A DNA stretch of 64,000 bases from Streptomyces sp. ICBB 8177 (GTDB lineage: Bacteria; Actinomycetota; Actinomycetes; Streptomycetales; Streptomycetaceae): the NCBI RefSeq assembly GCF_003144095.1, contig NZ_NSKH01000018.1:2013541-2077540 (forward strand), read 5' to 3'. The notes beneath the pieces were generated by a model. It did no database searches. It saw only the letters and a list, made by a program, of their open reading frames with translations, and was not told the DNA's origin. Position 1 is the stretch's first letter. Each line of letters starts with the position of its first letter. Of the stretch, positions 53,928 to 61,769 are shown one piece after another. Both the position numbers and the translations under genes were made by a program.

Positions 53928-55166
53928 ATGTCGCGGCTCCCCGCCCTCGCGGTCCTCGCCCTCAATCCCACGGACTCCGTCACCCACGGATTCCTCCCGG
54001 CCGCCACCCGGCTCGGCCTGGACGTCACCGTGCTGACCGAAGCGCGTCACGTCAGCGCGCACCGCGACGCGTACGCGGCCCGGGACGGGTCCGACGCTGC
54101 GCGGGTGGCGGTCGTGCCGTGCGAGGTGACGGACTTCCGCGAGGTCGTGGCGACCCTGGCCCGGCTGCCCGTGCCGGACGCGGTGTTCAGCAACAGCGAC
54201 CACCTCCAGACGCAGGCCGCCCTCGCCGCCGAGTGGTTCGGGCTGCCGGGGAAGGACTGGCGGACGGCGCTGCGGGTGAAGAACAAGGCGCACATGCGGC
54301 GCCACCTGGCATCCCGCGGCATCGACACCGTGCGGTCGGCGGAGGTGGCCGCGGGCGGCGACCCGGCGGACCTGCTCGCCCCTGACCTCACCTACCCGTG
54401 CGTGCTCAAGCCGCGCGAGGGCGTCGCCAGCGAGGACGTCGTGCTCGTGGCGAACGCAGAGGAGCTGTGGAAACGGGCCGCCGAGGCGCGGGCCCGGCGG
54501 CCGGGGGCGGCGCTGGTGGCCGAGGAGTTCCTCCCCGGCGACCTGCGCACCCTGGAGACGCTGGGCGACGCCGACGGCACCCGGCACGTGCTGGGCGGCT
54601 TCCGCACCCGGCTGTCCCCGCCCCCGTACTTCATCGAGGAGGGGCTGACCTGGGAGCCGGACCCGGACCGCGCGGTGACCGGCCAGGTGCTGGCCCAACT
54701 CGACGCACTGGGCGTGGCGTTCGGGATCTGCCACACCGAGTTCGTGGTGGACGGGAACGGGCGGGCGCGGCTGGTCGAGGTCAACTACCGTGCCATCGGC
54801 GACCAGTGCGACCTGCTCCTGGCCGACCTGCTGGAGGTCCCGCTGTTCGAGCACGTGCTGCGCGTCCACCTCGGCGAGCCGCTGCCCCGCGACCTCGGCG
54901 CCCGCACCGACGGCCGCGCCCGGCAGGACACCCCCTGCGCCGACCGCGCGGGAACGCTGACCACCGCCCCGCGGGCGTGCGAACGGACTGTGGACGGCTG
55001 CGCGTTGACGTACCGGCCGCTGCGCGCGATCGGTGAACGGCACGAGCTGTACCACACCAACCGCGACTACCTCGGCGTGCTACGGGTCGTCGGCGACCGG
55101 CAGCGGACCGTGGACCGGGTGGCCGAGGAGTTCCTGGCCGGGCAGCGCTGGGAGATCACCCCGTGA
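53928..55166 (+). CDS. ATP-grasp ligase of siderophore biosynthesis (PvsA-like)
   Basis: 412 aa. ATP-grasp features: RVKNKAHMRRHLASRGI, YPCVLKPREGVASEDV (ATP lysine), AEEFLPGDLRTLETLG, HTEFVVDGNGRARLVEVNYRAIGDQ (metal ligands). In vibrioferrin assembly the ATP-grasp enzyme makes an amide with an amino acid; the exact partner here is unknown. TAAGTT (53916-53921) and 6 nt before the ATG imply a leaderless start. Its stop overlaps the next gene. Confidence 0.88.
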   Translation: MSRLPALAVLALNPTDSVTHGFLPAATRLGLDVTVLTEARHVSAHRDAYAARDGSDAARVAVVPCEVTDFREVVATLARLPVPDAVFSNSDHLQTQAALAAEWFGLPGKDWRTALRVKNKAHMRRHLASRGIDTVRSAEVAAGGDPADLLAPDLTYPCVLKPREGVASEDVVLVANAEELWKRAAEARARRPGAALVAEEFLPGDLRTLETLGDADGTRHVLGGFRTRLSPPPYFIEEGLTWEPDPDRAVTGQVLAQLDALGVAFGICHTEFVVDGNGRARLVEVNYRAIGDQCDLLLADLLEVPLFEHVLRVHLGEPLPRDLGARTDGRARQDTPCADRAGTLTTAPRACERTVDGCALTYRPLRAIGERHELYHTNRDYLGVLRVVGDRQRTVDRVAEEFLAGQRWEITP

Positions 55167-56914
55167 GCGACCCCGAGCCCTACCTGCTGACGCGCGTGCT
55201 GGACGCGCTGCTGCGGGAGGACGTCGTGGGACTGCGGACCCGGTCCGCCGAGGTGCTGCGCGCGGACGGGCGCTGGCTGGTGCTGCCGGGAGCGGACGGT
55301 TGCGACGCGCTGGCGCTGCCGGTCACCCGGGACGGCTTCCAGTGCGAGGACCGCGCCCGGCTGCCACTCCTGCGCCGCGAGCCGTCCGGCTCCGAGCCGG
55401 CCGCCCGCGAAGACCTGACCACGTGCGCCGCCGTGCTCGCAGCGCTGCGTGAACGGGCCGAGGCGCCCGACCGCGCGGGCTTCGACGCGTACGCGGCCGA
55501 GTGCCGTCAGACGCTGGAGACGATGCGGCTGCACGACTCCGTGCGCGACGACACCCACCGCCGCCTCGCGCTGGCACACGGCGACGATCCCGCGCACTGG
55601 CGCGGTCCGCTCGGCGCCCTCGCCCTGGACGCGCTCGCCGCCCTCCACGACCACCCCGTCTACCCGACCGCCCGGGGCCGCGCGGGCCTGGGCGAGTGTC
55701 AACTGCGGGCGTTCGCACCGGAGTTCCTGCCCTCCTTCCGTCCGCGCTGGGTGGCGTTGCCGAAGGACGCGGTCGTGGCGCACGGCGTGACCGGGCACCG
55801 GGTGTGGCCGACGCCCGCCCGGCTGGGCCTGCCGGACCTGGACCGCACCCATGTCGCGCTCCCTGTGCACCCCTTGACGAGGGCTCGGGAACTGCATGAA
55901 GCGCTGCGTGAGGCGGGCCTCGCCGAGCGCGCGGTGCTCGCCCGCCGCCCCCACCTCGACCTGCGGCCCACCCTGTCGATGCGCACCGGCGCGATGGCCT
56001 GCGACCCGTACACCCACCTGAAGCTGCCGCTCGCCACCTCCACGCTCGGCCTGCTCAACCGCCGCACCATCAAGCCGGGCACGCTGGTGGACGGCGCGGT
56101 GTGCCAGCGGCTGCTGGAGGCGGTGATCGCGCGTGAACCGCGCTTCGGCGGTGTGGTGCTGCTCGCCGACGAGACCGCGTACGCGCACGCAGGACACCCG
56201 TTGCTCGCCGTGCTGCTGCGCACCCTGCCGGCCGGGCTCGACGACGCGGCCGTGGTGCCGCTGGCCGCGCTGCTCGCGCCCGCGCCGGGCGGGCGGACGG
56301 TGATCGACCACCTGGCCGACCACTGGTTCGGCGGCGACCCGCTCTCGCTGCTGGACGCGGTGCTGCGGCCGCTGTTCGACTGGCAGACCACCTTGTACGG
56401 CTACGGCATCGCGCTGGAGTCGCACCAGCAGAACGTCTCCGTGGTGCTCGACCGGGACGACGCGGGCGCGGTGCGGGTCCGGCTGCTGCTGAAGGACAAC
56501 GACGGCCCCCGCGTCCACACCGGACGGCTCGCCGCCACTCTCGGCGGCGCGCCGCCCGCGTTCGACGACCCGCGCGTGCTCGGCGCGGACGACGACGCGC
56601 TCGCCGCGCTGTTCACCACGATCACCGTCCATCTGTGCGCGGGTGCCTACGCGTTCGGGCTCGCGCGGGCGGGCCGGGTGCCGCTGGACGCCGCGCTGGC
56701 GGTGGTACGCGACCGGCTCGCGGAGGCGATCGGGCGGATGCCGCGGGAAGCGGGCCGGGCGCTGCGGGCGCGCACGCTGGACGCCGCGCGGTTGCCGGTG
56801 AAGGCCATGGTGACCGCGGGCACCCTGCGCACCAAGGAGCGGTCCGGGGCGGCCGACATCAACAAGCACTACACGGCGGGCCCGAACTACCTTGTGAGGT
56901 CCGCGCGTTCGTGA
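55163..56914 (+). CDS. IucA/IucC siderophore synthetase (PvsB-like)
   Basis: 583 aa NRPS-independent siderophore synthetase, adenylating a carboxylate and joining it to an amine or alcohol. Motifs: HPLTRARELHEAL, RPTLSMRTGAMACDPYTHLKLPLAT, GYGIALESHQQNVSVVLDRD, LKDNDGPRVHTGRL, and the FhuF-like C-terminal KHYTAGPNYLVRS. GTGA overlap with the ATP-grasp gene. A 36-codon ORF starts on its stop. Confidence 0.93.
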   Translation: MSDPEPYLLTRVLDALLREDVVGLRTRSAEVLRADGRWLVLPGADGCDALALPVTRDGFQCEDRARLPLLRREPSGSEPAAREDLTTCAAVLAALRERAEAPDRAGFDAYAAECRQTLETMRLHDSVRDDTHRRLALAHGDDPAHWRGPLGALALDALAALHDHPVYPTARGRAGLGECQLRAFAPEFLPSFRPRWVALPKDAVVAHGVTGHRVWPTPARLGLPDLDRTHVALPVHPLTRARELHEALREAGLAERAVLARRPHLDLRPTLSMRTGAMACDPYTHLKLPLATSTLGLLNRRTIKPGTLVDGAVCQRLLEAVIAREPRFGGVVLLADETAYAHAGHPLLAVLLRTLPAGLDDAAVVPLAALLAPAPGGRTVIDHLADHWFGGDPLSLLDAVLRPLFDWQTTLYGYGIALESHQQNVSVVLDRDDAGAVRVRLLLKDNDGPRVHTGRLAATLGGAPPAFDDPRVLGADDDALAALFTTITVHLCAGAYAFGLARAGRVPLDAALAVVRDRLAEAIGRMPREAGRALRARTLDAARLPVKAMVTAGTLRTKERSGAADINKHYTAGPNYLVRSARS

Positions 56915-57021
56915 CGACCCGCCGCCGTGGCGCCGCACCGGGGGAGCGCATAGCCGGGCGTCCCACGGACGCTTCCCGCCCTCGCCCCCCGTCTGCCTGC
57001 CCCTATCGCCGGAGTCGCTGA
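56911..57021 (+). CDS. 36-codon coupled ORF in the place of the exporter gene
   Basis: GTG at 56911 overlaps the upstream stop (GTGA), and its TGA overlaps the next ATG (TGATG). It encodes a basic, Arg/Pro-rich peptide (VTTRRRGAAPGERIAG...). In pvsABCDE this position holds an MFS exporter, so this may be what remains after a clean in-frame deletion, or simply a spacer. Confidence 0.4.
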   Translation: MTTRRRGAAPGERIAGRPTDASRPRPPSACPYRRSR

Positions 57022-58832
57022 TGCCGACCAGCCCCGCCGCCTCCCGTCCGACCGTCCCGCACCTCGCCGCTCCGGAGGCCCGCACCGCCCCCGCTCCGGA
57101 GGCCCGACCCCCCGCCCCGGAAGCCGGAGTGCTGCCCTCCGCCGACGTCGTCGTCGCCCACACCCTGCTCAACTGCCTGCTGCGCGAGGTCTCCGCACCC
57201 GGGCACCGCACGGCCGTCGCCGGCGACCACCTGCACCTGCGGCTGCCCGCGCGAGGCGTGCTGCTGCGGGTGGCGCTGCGCCGCGCCTCGCTGCTGGGCG
57301 CCCACCGCTTCACCGGCCCGGTGGCGGTCCGCGCCCGCGACGGCTGGCGGCCGGTCGGCTGGCGGCGGCTCGCGGAGTACGTGCGCGACGAGCTGGACGC
57401 GCGGACCGGCGTGGCCAACGAGGAGTTCGTGGCCCAGGTCGTCTCCAGCCACGAGGGGGTCGCGGCCGGCCTCGCCGCGCCCCGCCGAGGCCCGGAGCCC
57501 GGCGCCGATCCCCGGACCGCCCGCTACCTGGAGTCCGAACGCGCGCTGCTCTTCGGTCACCGCTTCCACCCCACGCCGAAGGCCCGTTCCGCGGACCGGA
57601 CCGCGTGGCGGCGCTACGCGCCCGAAGCGGGGGCCCGCTTCCCGCTGCGCCACCTCGCGGTCCGCGCCGACCTGGTGGCGGGGGAGTGCGCCGAGCCGGG
57701 CGCGGACGCGGCGATCGACCGGCTGCGCGACGTCCCGGCCGGACACCGGCTGCTGCCCGTCCACCCCTGGCAGTACGAACTGCTGGGTGAGGCACCCTTG
57801 TTGCGTGCCGCCATCGAACGCGGTGAGGTGCTGGACCTCGGCACCGGCGGGCCGACCTTCGCGCCGACCGCGTCGGTGCGCACCCTGCACGGCGACGGCG
57901 GCTTCCTGAAGTTCAGCCTGAACGTGCGGATCACCAACTGCCTGCGCAAGAACGCCAGTTACGAGCTGTCCGGCGCGGTCGCGCTCACCCGGCTGCTGAA
58001 GCCCGCGCTGGACGACCTGGCCCGGCGCTTCCCCGGCACCGGCATGCTGCGCGAACCGGCCTACCGCTCGCTCGCGCTGCCCGGCCCGGACGGGCGGCCC
58101 GACACCGGGCTGCTGGAGGGCTTCGGCGTCATCGTCCGCGACGGCCTCGACGGCCATCTCGCGCCCGGTGTCACGCCGTTGCTCGCCGCGGCCGTGGCCG
58201 ACGAGTACCCCACCAGCTCCGCGCACGTCTCCCGTCTTCCGGCCGTGACCGGCGGGCCGGGCGCGGCCCCGCGGTGGTGGGCGGCGTACCTGCGGCTGCT
58301 GCTGCCGCCGGTACTGGCCGCCTGGTTCGACCACGGCGTCGTGCTCGAACCGCACCTGCAGAACGTGCTGATCGGCGTGGACGCCACCGGCCTGCCCCGG
58401 CAGGTGCTCTTCCGCGACCTGGAGGGCACCAAGCTGCTGGCCTCCCGCCACACCGCCGCGCTCGCCGCACTCCCCGCCGACGTCGCCGGACCCATGACGT
58501 ACGACGCGCGACGCGGCTGGGACCGGGTCGTCTACTGCCTGCTGGTCAACAACGTCGCCGAGACCCTGGCCGCCCTCGCGGACCTGCGCCCCGGACTCGA
58601 GGCCGCGCTGTGGGCGGAAGTCCGCGACGTGCTGCGGGAGTTCGCCGACGCGCACGGTCGGCCGCCCGCGCTGCGCCGCCTGCTCGCCGGGGAGCCGCTG
58701 CCCGCCAAGGCCAATCTGCTCACCCGCTGGCGCCGCCGTGCCGACCGCGACGCGGACTACGTACGGCTGCCCTCGCCGCTCGCCGGCGACGTGCTGTCCG
58801 GAGCGCGCTCGGCGACCGGCGGCCCCCGATGA
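57021..58832 (+). CDS. IucA/IucC siderophore synthetase (PvsD-like)
   Basis: 603 aa, second synthetase. A ~40-residue Pro/Ala leader, then HRFHPTPKARS, LLPVHPWQYELL, PTASVRTLHGDGGFLKFSLNVRITNCLRKNASYE, VLEPHLQNVLIG and FRDLEGTKLL. In the vibrioferrin path the PvsD-type enzyme joins citrate and serine. ATG with GGAG 6 nt before. Its stop overlaps an ATG that begins a repeat tract. Confidence 0.93.
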   Translation: MPTSPAASRPTVPHLAAPEARTAPAPEARPPAPEAGVLPSADVVVAHTLLNCLLREVSAPGHRTAVAGDHLHLRLPARGVLLRVALRRASLLGAHRFTGPVAVRARDGWRPVGWRRLAEYVRDELDARTGVANEEFVAQVVSSHEGVAAGLAAPRRGPEPGADPRTARYLESERALLFGHRFHPTPKARSADRTAWRRYAPEAGARFPLRHLAVRADLVAGECAEPGADAAIDRLRDVPAGHRLLPVHPWQYELLGEAPLLRAAIERGEVLDLGTGGPTFAPTASVRTLHGDGGFLKFSLNVRITNCLRKNASYELSGAVALTRLLKPALDDLARRFPGTGMLREPAYRSLALPGPDGRPDTGLLEGFGVIVRDGLDGHLAPGVTPLLAAAVADEYPTSSAHVSRLPAVTGGPGAAPRWWAAYLRLLLPPVLAAWFDHGVVLEPHLQNVLIGVDATGLPRQVLFRDLEGTKLLASRHTAALAALPADVAGPMTYDARRGWDRVVYCLLVNNVAETLAALADLRPGLEAALWAEVRDVLREFADAHGRPPALRRLLAGEPLPAKANLLTRWRRRADRDADYVRLPSPLAGDVLSGARSATGGPR

Positions 58833-58903
58833 CGCCGCCGGGCCTACAGCCCCCGATGACGCCGTCGGGTCCACGCCCCCCGGTGACGCCGTCCGGCGAC
58901 GAC
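58823..58903 (+). repeat. three 27-bp tandem repeats, each with a start codon
   Basis: Units begin at 58823, 58850 and 58877. Each has CCCCC(G)RTGACGCCG with ATG (58829), ATG (58856) or GTG (58883), all in the decarboxylase frame. The first ATG overlaps the synthetase stop (ATGA). Confidence 0.8.
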
Positions 58904-58924
58904 CAGCCCCCGCAGGAGCCCCCG

Positions 58925-60112
58925 ATGCGCCCGTCCGTCCGCGACCTCGTCGCCTCCGCCGCCCCCGACGAACTGCCCGCGTACGTCTACGACGTGGCCG
59001 CGCTGCGTGAGCACGCCTCAGCCGTGCGCGCCGCGCTGCCCCCGGCCGTCGAGCTGTACTACGCGGCCAAGGCCAACCCGGCCCCCGAGATCCTCGCCGC
59101 GCTGCGGGAGGCCGTCACCGGGTACGAGGTGGCCTCAGGGGGCGAGCTGGCGCACGTGCGCGAGGCGGTCCCCGGCGCGCCGGTGGCGTTCGGCGGCCCG
59201 GGCAAGACGACCGCCGAGATCGCGGCGGCGCTGGCGGCGGGGACCGAGCGCTTCCACGTCGAGAGCGTCCACGAACTGCGGCTGCTGGCGGCGCTCGCCG
59301 ACCGCGCCGGGCGCCCCGCGGACGTCCTGCTGCGCGTCAACCCGGCGGTGGACGGCGGCGCGCTGGACGGGGTGGCGCTGGCGATGGGCGGGCGGCCGAC
59401 GCCGTTCGGCCTCGACCCGGACGCGGTGACCGCGTGCCTGCGGCTGCTGCGCGACCCGCAGTTGCGGAGCCTGACCCTGCGCGGCGTCCACGCCCACCTC
59501 GCCAGCGGCCTGAACGCGGATGCCCAACTCGCCGTGGCACGGCGGATCGTGACGTACGCGGCCGGCCTCTTCGTAACGCACCCCGTGCCGCACCCGGAGG
59601 TCAACCTCGGCGGCGGCATGGCCGTCGACTACGCCGACCCGGAACACCGCTTCGACTGGACCGCGTTCGGCGCCGGGCTGGCGGAAATCGCCGCAGAGCG
59701 GCCGGAGTTGACGTTGCGGATCGAGCCTGGGCGGGCGCTGACCGCGTACTGCGGCTGGTACGCGACCGAGGTGCTGGACGTCAAGCACAGCCACGGTGAG
59801 GACTTCGCGGTCCTGCGCGGCGGCACCCACCACCTGCGCACCCCGGTCACCCGGGGCCACGACCAGCCGTTCGCCCTGCTGCCGGTGGAGACCTGGCCGC
59901 ACCCCTGGCCGCGCCCCGCGGCGGGCGGCGGACGGATCACGCTGGTCGGTCAACTGTGCACGCCGAAAGACGTGTTCGCCCGGCGCGTCCCGGCGACCGG
60001 GCTGCGCGCCGGGGACCGGGTGGCGTTCGCCATGGCGGGCGCGTACGCGTGGAACATCTCGCACCACGAGTTCCTGATGCACCCGCGTCCGCGCTTCCAC
60101 TACGTGGGCTGA
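58925..60112 (+). CDS. PLP-dependent decarboxylase of siderophore biosynthesis (PvsE-like)
   Basis: 395 aa, type III-fold (ornithine/diaminopimelate) decarboxylase. PLP lysine Lys49 in LYYAAKANPAP; GVHAHLASGLNADAQ, EVNLGGGMAVDY, RIEPGRALTAYCGWY, catalytic Cys in VGQLCTPKDVF. In the vibrioferrin pathway it acts on citryl-serine to give the ethanolamine unit. ATG with AGGAG six bases before is used; 58829 would add 32 Pro-rich residues. Confidence 0.92.
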   Translation: MRPSVRDLVASAAPDELPAYVYDVAALREHASAVRAALPPAVELYYAAKANPAPEILAALREAVTGYEVASGGELAHVREAVPGAPVAFGGPGKTTAEIAAALAAGTERFHVESVHELRLLAALADRAGRPADVLLRVNPAVDGGALDGVALAMGGRPTPFGLDPDAVTACLRLLRDPQLRSLTLRGVHAHLASGLNADAQLAVARRIVTYAAGLFVTHPVPHPEVNLGGGMAVDYADPEHRFDWTAFGAGLAEIAAERPELTLRIEPGRALTAYCGWYATEVLDVKHSHGEDFAVLRGGTHHLRTPVTRGHDQPFALLPVETWPHPWPRPAAGGGRITLVGQLCTPKDVFARRVPATGLRAGDRVAFAMAGAYAWNISHHEFLMHPRPRFHYVG

Positions 60113-60184: not shown

Positions 60185-61621
60185 TCAGCCGGTCAGCTCG
60201 TCCTCCGGGATCGTGATGACCCAGTGCGTCTCCTTGCGCGGCCGCAGGTAGAAGACCCAGTACAGGGCGGCGGCCGCGGTCACCCCGGCCGTGATCAGCA
60301 GGTCGCGGGCGGTCTGCTGGGCCAGCACCCACACCAGCACCGCCAGCAGCAGCGCGGGCACGACCGGCCACAGCGGCATCCGCCACACGCCCTCACGGCC
60401 CTTGTGCACGCCCCGGCGGCAGGCCAGCGCCGCCAGCGCCACGAACGCGTACAGCGCGGCCACCGCGACGCCGGTGACGCCGTTGAGGGTGTCGACCGGC
60501 ACGAAGCACAGGATGGCGCCGGGCACGCCGACCGCCAGCGTGGCGATCCACGGCGAGCCGAAGCGCTTGCTGAGGTTGCCGAAGGCCCGGTTGACCGGCG
60601 CGGGCCAGGCGTTGTCGCGGGCCGAGGCGTACAGCACCCGGGAGTTCTGGATGACCATCACGATCGCCGCGTTGATGATGGCCAGCGCGATGCACAGGCT
60701 GATGAAGGTGCCGAGGGCGCTGTCGCTCCAGCGCTGCACCATCCCGGCCACGTCGCCGCCGGCCAGCGTCGTCAGGTCCGGGGCGCCCAGGGTGATGGCG
60801 ACGACCGGGACCAGCACGACCGCGGCGCCGATGGCCAGCGTCCACAGCACGGTGCGCGAGACGGTGCGGCGCGGGTTCTCCATCTCCTCCGACAGGTACA
60901 CGGCCGTCGAGAAGCCCTGGAGGATGAACAGGGCCGCCGCGAGCCCGGCGACGATCAGCCCGGCGGAGACCGGGGTGCTCGCCCCGTGCGCCCCGGCCAT
61001 CACCGGGTGGATCAGCACCGACGCCGAGCGGTGGGTGTGGCTGAAGCCGAGGAAGGCCACCACACCGGAGGCGACGACCTCCAGCACCAGGAAGACGCCG
61101 GTGATCCAGGCGTTCGCCCGCAGGTCCAGCAGGCCCATCACGGTGGCCAGCAGCATCACCGCCGCGCCCATCACCTTCGCGTCCACGTGCACGATCGGCG
61201 CGAGGTACTCGGCGGTGCCCAGCGCGATGATCGGCGGCACGATCATCACCACGATCAGCGCCTGGATGAAGACCAGCCAGCCAGAGAACCGCCCCGTGAG
61301 CGTGCCGACCATGGCGTACTCGCCGCCGGCGCTCGGGATCAGCGTGCCCAGTTCCGAGTAGCAGAAGGCGACCGCCACGCACAGCACGACGGCGATCACC
61401 AGGGTCAGCGCGGTCCCGGTGCCCAGGGACGCGAACGACCCCGGCACGATCACGAACAGCGACGAGGCCGGGGTCAGGCAGGAGAGGGTCAGCAGCGTGC
61501 CGCCGACCACCCCGATGGAACGGTTCAGCTTGGGCGCCTCGTGCGGCGTCACGCCGGGCGTCGTGGCGGCTTGCCCGCCGCCGGAGGCGTCGGGTGCGGG
61601 CGGTCGCAGGATGTCGGTCAT
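60185..61621 (-). CDS. APC-superfamily amino acid permease
   Basis: 478 aa, about 12 transmembrane helices. VVGGTLLTLSCLTPASSLFVIVPG and ELGTLIPSAGGEYAMVGTLTG mark the APC fold; VYLSEEMENPRRTVSRTVLW is the conserved loop after helix 6. Amino acid or amine uptake is likely. ATG at 61621 is preferred over GTG at 61642; neither has a strong ribosome site. It is not obviously part of the siderophore path. Confidence 0.9.
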   Translation of the reverse strand: MTDILRPPAPDASGGGQAATTPGVTPHEAPKLNRSIGVVGGTLLTLSCLTPASSLFVIVPGSFASLGTGTALTLVIAVVLCVAVAFCYSELGTLIPSAGGEYAMVGTLTGRFSGWLVFIQALIVVMIVPPIIALGTAEYLAPIVHVDAKVMGAAVMLLATVMGLLDLRANAWITGVFLVLEVVASGVVAFLGFSHTHRSASVLIHPVMAGAHGASTPVSAGLIVAGLAAALFILQGFSTAVYLSEEMENPRRTVSRTVLWTLAIGAAVVLVPVVAITLGAPDLTTLAGGDVAGMVQRWSDSALGTFISLCIALAIINAAIVMVIQNSRVLYASARDNAWPAPVNRAFGNLSKRFGSPWIATLAVGVPGAILCFVPVDTLNGVTGVAVAALYAFVALAALACRRGVHKGREGVWRMPLWPVVPALLLAVLVWVLAQQTARDLLITAGVTAAAALYWVFYLRPRKETHWVITIPEDELTG

Positions 61622-61769
61622 ACGGCGTCCCATCGGGCTCACTGGGGCGGAGTGGTGCGGAGGGGGTGGGAGCGTTATCGCCTCCGTAGGGCTGGCTGCT
61701 CGTGGTGCTCGGCCGCTCCCGGGACGTCATGAGACATGTGCTGTTAACAAAGCGTCAACCCCCCTTTCG

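Follow-up and report, generated by a model that had tools for sequence, protein, structure and literature searches.

The 64,000-nt stretch of Streptomyces sp. ICBB 8177 analysed here (the window) contains a vibrioferrin-type (pvs) biosynthetic set—recognised in Pfam as ATP-grasp, IucA/IucC, IucA/IucC and PLP decarboxylase, in the order pvsA-B-D-E—and raises the question of what has become of pvsC, the exporter gene. Between the two synthetases the MFS exporter is absent, only a scar of 111 nt being found there, and the genome contains no orthologue of it. An earlier note on this DNA had proposed that the 36-codon ORF occupying this place is what remained after an exporter had been deleted in frame with the translational coupling kept, and that the locus was thus left with neither an exporter nor an uptake gene.

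The short frame between the two synthetases

The features of the locus are collected in Table 1. The FhuF-like reductase, which together with the iron box adds to the account of the earlier note, scores 339 bits against the family HMM built from the homologous loci, the ATP-grasp ligase gene is found in every complete homologous locus, and the nearest solved structure to the PvsD-like synthetase is that of AcsD (E=2e-67). An amino-acid permease (60185–61642, minus strand) lies convergent with pvsE, at the same place in three of three Streptantibioticus genomes and beside no other locus; it was considered as a substitute exporter and rejected, its orientation being convergent and its adjacency to the cluster, confined to Streptantibioticus, probably reflecting mere synteny.

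Table 1. Positions within the window of the pvs-like locus and its regulatory and residual elements
Feature	Position	Strand	Basis and remarks
FhuF-like ferric-siderophore reductase, 2Fe-2S C-terminal motif	52883..~53761 (start codon approximate)	-	divergent from operon; Pfam FhuF_C PF11575, E=2e-6
IdeR/DmdR-type iron box TTAGGTATAGCTAACCTAA	53900..53918	+	9 nt upstream of pvsA start; 3 mismatches to consensus, 0 expected in shuffles
PvsA-like ATP-grasp ligase	53928..55166	+	Pfam ATP-grasp_4
PvsB-like NIS synthetase (IucA/IucC)	55163..56914	+	Pfam PF04183/PF06276; omega 0.19 vs S. parmotrematis
Probable pvsC scar, coupled 36-codon ORF without coding selection	56911..57021	+	position and couplings as in MFS gene of homologues; omega 1.0
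Probable exporter C-terminus relic R-R-S-R-stop, overlapping pvsD ATG	57007..57021	+	RWSR* in sister species
GGAG Shine-Dalgarno of pvsD, within the exporter's last codons	57011..57014	+	6-nt spacing to ATG
PvsD-like NIS synthetase (IucA/IucC)	57021..58832	+	Pfam PF04183/PF06276; omega 0.23 vs S. parmotrematis
PvsE-like PLP-dependent decarboxylase	~58883..60112 (start approximate)	+	Pfam Orn_Arg_deC_N PF02784

Both couplings described in the earlier note (56911–57021) were confirmed: the GTG of the short ORF (56911–56913) overlaps the TGA stop of the pvsB-like gene (56912–56914) as GTGA, and its own TGA (57019–57021) overlaps the ATG of the pvsD-like gene at 57021 as TGATG, with 36 codons in between. 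The encoded peptide is VTTRRRGAAPGERIAGRPTDASRPRPPSACPYRRSR. At the local composition, chance alone would give a 36-codon open frame in 61–76% of cases, and the openness of the ORF is therefore uninformative; what is informative is the exactness of both couplings, together with the residues at the C-terminus. The peptide has no family match in domain searches, and neither a hairpin nor a repeat was found inside the scar.

Concerning the closest relatives, Streptantibioticus parmotrematis (locus L005) has at the same junction an ORF of equal length, 36 codons, ending with RWSR* (the asterisk marking the stop), whereas the one in S. ferralitis (L039) comprises 40 codons, ends with RTRWSR* and has only the C-terminus in common, its length and remaining sequence not being conserved. 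The ORF of the window ends with RRSR*, i.e. the tryptophan of the exporter is replaced by arginine. The ends of 35 exporters have the consensus RTRWSR*TG, and the site in the window stands out from all ATG contexts of the window with p=0.006. The codons for the W-S pair of the exporter contain the GGAG placed 6 nt upstream of the pvsD ATG, with G-G-A-G kept in 32–35 of 35 exporter loci; the tail of the exporter has probably been retained because it constitutes the ribosome-binding site of pvsD. It should be noted that only about 4–5 recognisable exporter residues are left in the window, so that the case for a scar leans on the sister species and on other lineages: the residual pvsC sequence is weak in the window alone and strong in the sister species.

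Between the window and S. parmotrematis, 10 substitutions have accumulated over the 36 codons with an omega (dN/dS) of 1.0, as compared with 0.19 for pvsB and 0.23 for pvsD; no purifying selection on the peptide was thus detected, contrary to the possibility, mentioned in the earlier note, that it would prove conserved. It is accordingly very unlikely that the ORF encodes a functional small protein or serves as a translational-coupling element between pvsB and pvsD. The exact coupling at both ends and the same length in S. parmotrematis would agree with such a role, but the omega value, the lack of a family match and the absence of conservation beyond the C-terminus in S. ferralitis speak against it, as do the scars of other lineages, about half of which are out of frame, so that coupling through the ORF is not required. 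Of the in-frame deletion with coupling kept, the couplings stand, while the frame itself is not significant: about 7 of 13 recognisable scars, as counted by eye, are in frame, which is not clearly more than the one third expected, and the in-frame deletion was therefore rejected as a sign of selection.

The exporter in related loci and the number of its losses

Scanning one genome per species yielded 80 homologous loci, of which 76 were usable and, together with the window, make up the 77 rows of the tree. In 54 of the 77 loci, the two synthetases are separated by an MFS transporter, which disposes of the possibility that relatives never have an exporter at this point. A 4-nt overlap (ATGA or GTGA) joins the pvsB stop to the exporter start in nearly all exporter loci, and in 35 loci a TGATG joins the exporter stop to the pvsD start. 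The exporter belongs to Pfam MFS_1; the closest curated model, that of the rhizoferrin exporter FslB, is matched with E=2e-19, which is far below the family cut-off.

In several other lineages, the loss of the exporter has been caught in progress: the exporter start and the last 85 residues are joined in one frame by an in-frame internal deletion in L047, decayed pieces of the exporter are still in place in L074 and L027, and short scars ending with TRWSR or IRWSR are present in L038, L056 and L059. The deletion of an exporter at this very point, as had been proposed, is thus borne out by the intact MFS genes as well as by the remnants found in place elsewhere. Two further loci are worth mentioning here. 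In Streptomyces fulvorobeus (L017:6662-7950) the exporter is apparently split over three frames next to an intact importer, representing either an early loss or an assembly error, and in Kribbella sandramycini (L050:6759-9680) the exporter and the PvsD synthetase share one frame of 973 codons, a possible fusion.

On the tree based on concatenated PvsA, B, D and E, the absence of the exporter corresponds to 14 changes, 12 of them forced by the starred, i.e. strongly supported, branches; when losses are counted as irreversible, the exporter was lost 14 times and the importer 16 times. A single clade of all exporter-less loci is rejected (AU test on a 43-row subset, p-AU 6e-5). The exporter has therefore been lost at least a dozen separate times among related actinobacteria, and while the deletion suggested in the earlier note holds, it is not confined to this genome but belongs to a series of a dozen or more parallel losses in which the importer was also taken. 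Events of horizontal transfer may be contained in the gene tree; these would alter where, not whether, repeated loss happened, because the remnants are in place. It is also hardly credible that the locus never had an exporter and that the exporter-containing loci gained it. The tree by itself cannot separate gain from loss, but decayed and truncated remnants in place contradict a gain, the exporter C-terminus is present in the scars, and the same exporter with the same junction and overlaps throughout the tree would require an identical insertion to have happened many times.

Based on the above results, it is very probable that the 36-codon ORF is the scar of a deleted pvsC and that the locus in the window has been stripped of transport, a degree of confidence that applies to these two points and not to the function of the product.

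Importer loss and possible transport elsewhere in the genome

In complete loci (L087, L088), the divergent fhuF comes first, then two FecCD permease genes, an ATPase gene and the gene of a substrate-binding lipoprotein (SBP), and finally pvsA-E; in the window, the four-gene FecCDE/SBP importer situated elsewhere between fhuF and pvsA is wholly absent, and no MFS exporter, SBP or FecCD gene of the cognate families was found within its 64 kb. With the importer scored by hand from HMM coverage, and L073 and L070 left out because they are truncated, 49 loci have both exporter and importer, 22 have neither, four have only the exporter and none has only the importer. Six loci of the L011 type, having a different SBP/FecCD set, were scored as importer-positive, and L038, with the SBP only, as importer-negative; in the six (L011, L014, L016, L026, L029 and L042), the place of the four-gene importer is taken by a set upstream of fhuF that comprises a paralogous SBP together with a FecCD permease in divergent orientation. 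The importer has decayed next to an intact exporter in L058 and L054/L089, and leftover pieces of the SBP occur in L015, L027 and L047. Among independent pairs differing in the exporter, about 10 of 11 also differ in the importer, and in the same sense, whereas none differs in the opposite one (sign test, median p 0.002). Since the states are nested, with no locus having only the importer, this suggests that the importer was lost before or together with the exporter; the apparently frameshifted exporter of L017, with its importer intact, is a possible exception to this order. The SBP of the lost importer resembles the Fe-dicitrate protein FecB, a likeness that is only suggestive of vibrioferrin or a close carboxylate product.

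A profile search of the 23 genomes whose loci have lost the exporter (the lossy genomes) found no exporter orthologue, the best match reaching 113 bits as compared with more than 670 bits in four control genomes; the strongest matches are in-place remnants or distant MFS proteins, and the window's own genome does not exceed 24 bits. These searches, which covered whole genomes and included positive controls, led to the rejection of a relocated exporter. Nor does the own genome contain the cognate SBP (106 bits vs 611 in a control). The claim that the locus has no exporter or uptake gene is thus borne out and extends to orthologues in the whole genome. An iron-box exporter elsewhere, for which the earlier note had suggested a search, was looked for, and no MFS gene lies beside any box in this genome. 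Its other iron boxes adjoin a GNAT/SDR pair, an SBP/FecCD pair, a BFD-like ferredoxin, a siderophore-interacting protein and a DUF2470 gene next to an S4 gene; the SBP/FecCD pair (L093, G000:C11:548735-551753), in which the permease is divergent, is a candidate importer in trans. The same genome also has a second NIS locus (L090:7573-11006, contig C22), where a diaminobutyrate transaminase-like gene precedes the gene of an NIS synthetase that shares 38% identity with the PvsD-like protein.

These observations bear on the main rival to a product acting inside the cell, and nearly as likely, namely that the siderophore may still be secreted and recovered through non-cognate pumps and ABC importers, the in-cluster copies having been redundant and lost. 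Several of the other lossy genomes, and controls too, encode elsewhere a paralogous SBP scoring about 280–320 bits, the own genome has the iron-box SBP/FecCD locus at C11:550 kb, and the loci of the L011 type hold their different SBP/FecCD set beside fhuF. In the jadomycin cluster of Streptomyces venezuelae, moreover, an MFS transporter is reported to be dispensable for excretion (PMC5359229). Transport in trans is, however, weakened by the fact that the own genome and several of the other lossy ones lack the paralogous SBP, by the lack of an MFS exporter with an iron box in the own genome, and by the lack of any recurring substitute transporter beside the lossy clusters.

Retained biosynthesis and comparison with known systems

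All four enzyme frames are intact in the window. In the lossy pairs L009/L022, L065/L081 and L083/L084, which probably split after the loss, the omega values of the four enzymes are 0.17–0.30, within the range of the complete loci, and residues invariant in complete loci are 97–100% kept in lossy ones. The synthetases are, judged by these ratios, under purifying selection. In the own clade, Streptantibioticus, the values are somewhat higher (0.20–0.52; pvsA 0.52, pvsE 0.41), and pvsA and pvsE may be slightly relaxed there. The iron box occupies the same place in both sister species and in other importer-less loci, and most lossy loci have a similar box upstream of pvsA. A-B-D-E stand alone, without a neighbouring fhuF, in the lossy loci L052 and L071, so that the reductase is not indispensable to the pattern. 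In a Streptomycetaceae MAG (L006:8268-10915), only PvsD- and PvsE-like genes are present, A and B being missing from the 8 kb upstream.

It could be argued that the whole pathway is dying, with transport lost first and the biosynthetic genes being early pseudogenes. The slightly raised omegas of pvsA and pvsE in Streptantibioticus and the retention of D and E only in L006 would fit; the low omegas of the other lossy pairs, within the range of complete loci, the kept invariant residues, the intact frames and the kept iron box make it unlikely.

The ancestral streptomycete order would have been divergent fhuF, iron box, fecC, fecD, fecE, SBP, pvsA, pvsB, pvsC, pvsD and pvsE. The common ancestor of Streptantibioticus very probably lost the importer block and nearly the whole of pvsC, with the pvsB stop and the last pvsC codons, which contain the pvsD Shine-Dalgarno and the TGATG junction, surviving the deletion, so that pvsD remains translatable. 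The remainder is a biosynthesis-only operon controlled by the iron box, accompanied by the ferric-siderophore reductase. The sequences show such stripping to have taken place at least a dozen times in related actinobacteria, the importer being lost before or with the exporter. As read from the sequences, this genomic history (deletion, scar, importer loss, recurrence and constrained biosynthesis behind an iron box) is secure.

As to the fate of the product, its secretion would, once it is not importable, give iron away, and export would therefore be lost next; use inside the cell is suggested by the biosynthesis staying after transport loss. There may be a near-even chance that the product is now mainly an intracellular citrate-based iron ligand from which iron is released by FhuF. 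More tentatively, streptomycetes may many times in parallel have converted a secreted siderophore pathway into an intracellular iron-ligand pathway, by losing first the importer and then the exporter while the iron-regulated biosynthesis and usually FhuF were kept under selection.

According to a survey of siderophore-binding proteins, certain types of siderophore cluster are wholly or in part devoid of a gene for such a protein; the part consulted deals with uptake only and does not treat the joint loss of exporter and importer (PMC13293324). Literature searches found no published description of this transport-stripping pattern. While loci of this kind are known, the recurrent removal of their transport genes, leaving a readable scar, appears to be new. 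Accounts of siderophore evolution usually centre on cheating, in which biosynthesis is lost and uptake kept. Here the reverse is seen repeatedly: five transport genes disappear, whereas the four for biosynthesis remain, still behind an iron box and under purifying selection. This leaves two possibilities, a so far unrecognised function of NIS siderophores within Gram-positive cells or a full replacement of the dedicated transporters by unrelated ones. Moreover, an annotated NI-siderophore cluster need not mean a secreted siderophore.

A siderophore-type molecule kept intracellular is represented by the fungal ferricrocin; it is, however, a eukaryotic, non-ribosomal peptide hydroxamate without homology, and its likeness to the window's product would be by analogy only. 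The vibrioferrin operon pvsABCDE of Vibrio and the equivalent xanthoferrin operon encode an ATP-grasp enzyme, an NIS synthetase, an MFS exporter, a second NIS synthetase and a PLP decarboxylase. The window has the same kinds of genes in the same order, except for the exporter, which is reduced to a scar; those operons are associated with an outer-membrane receptor, whereas the complete actinobacterial relatives have the FecCDE/SBP importer and FhuF instead. Among these, Streptomyces regalis (L041/L088) and S. cyaneochromogenes (L020/L087) share with the window the biosynthetic genes, the divergent fhuF and the overlaps at both the pvsB and the pvsD junction, but they keep fecC, fecD, fecE, the SBP gene and pvsC, all five of which the window has lost.
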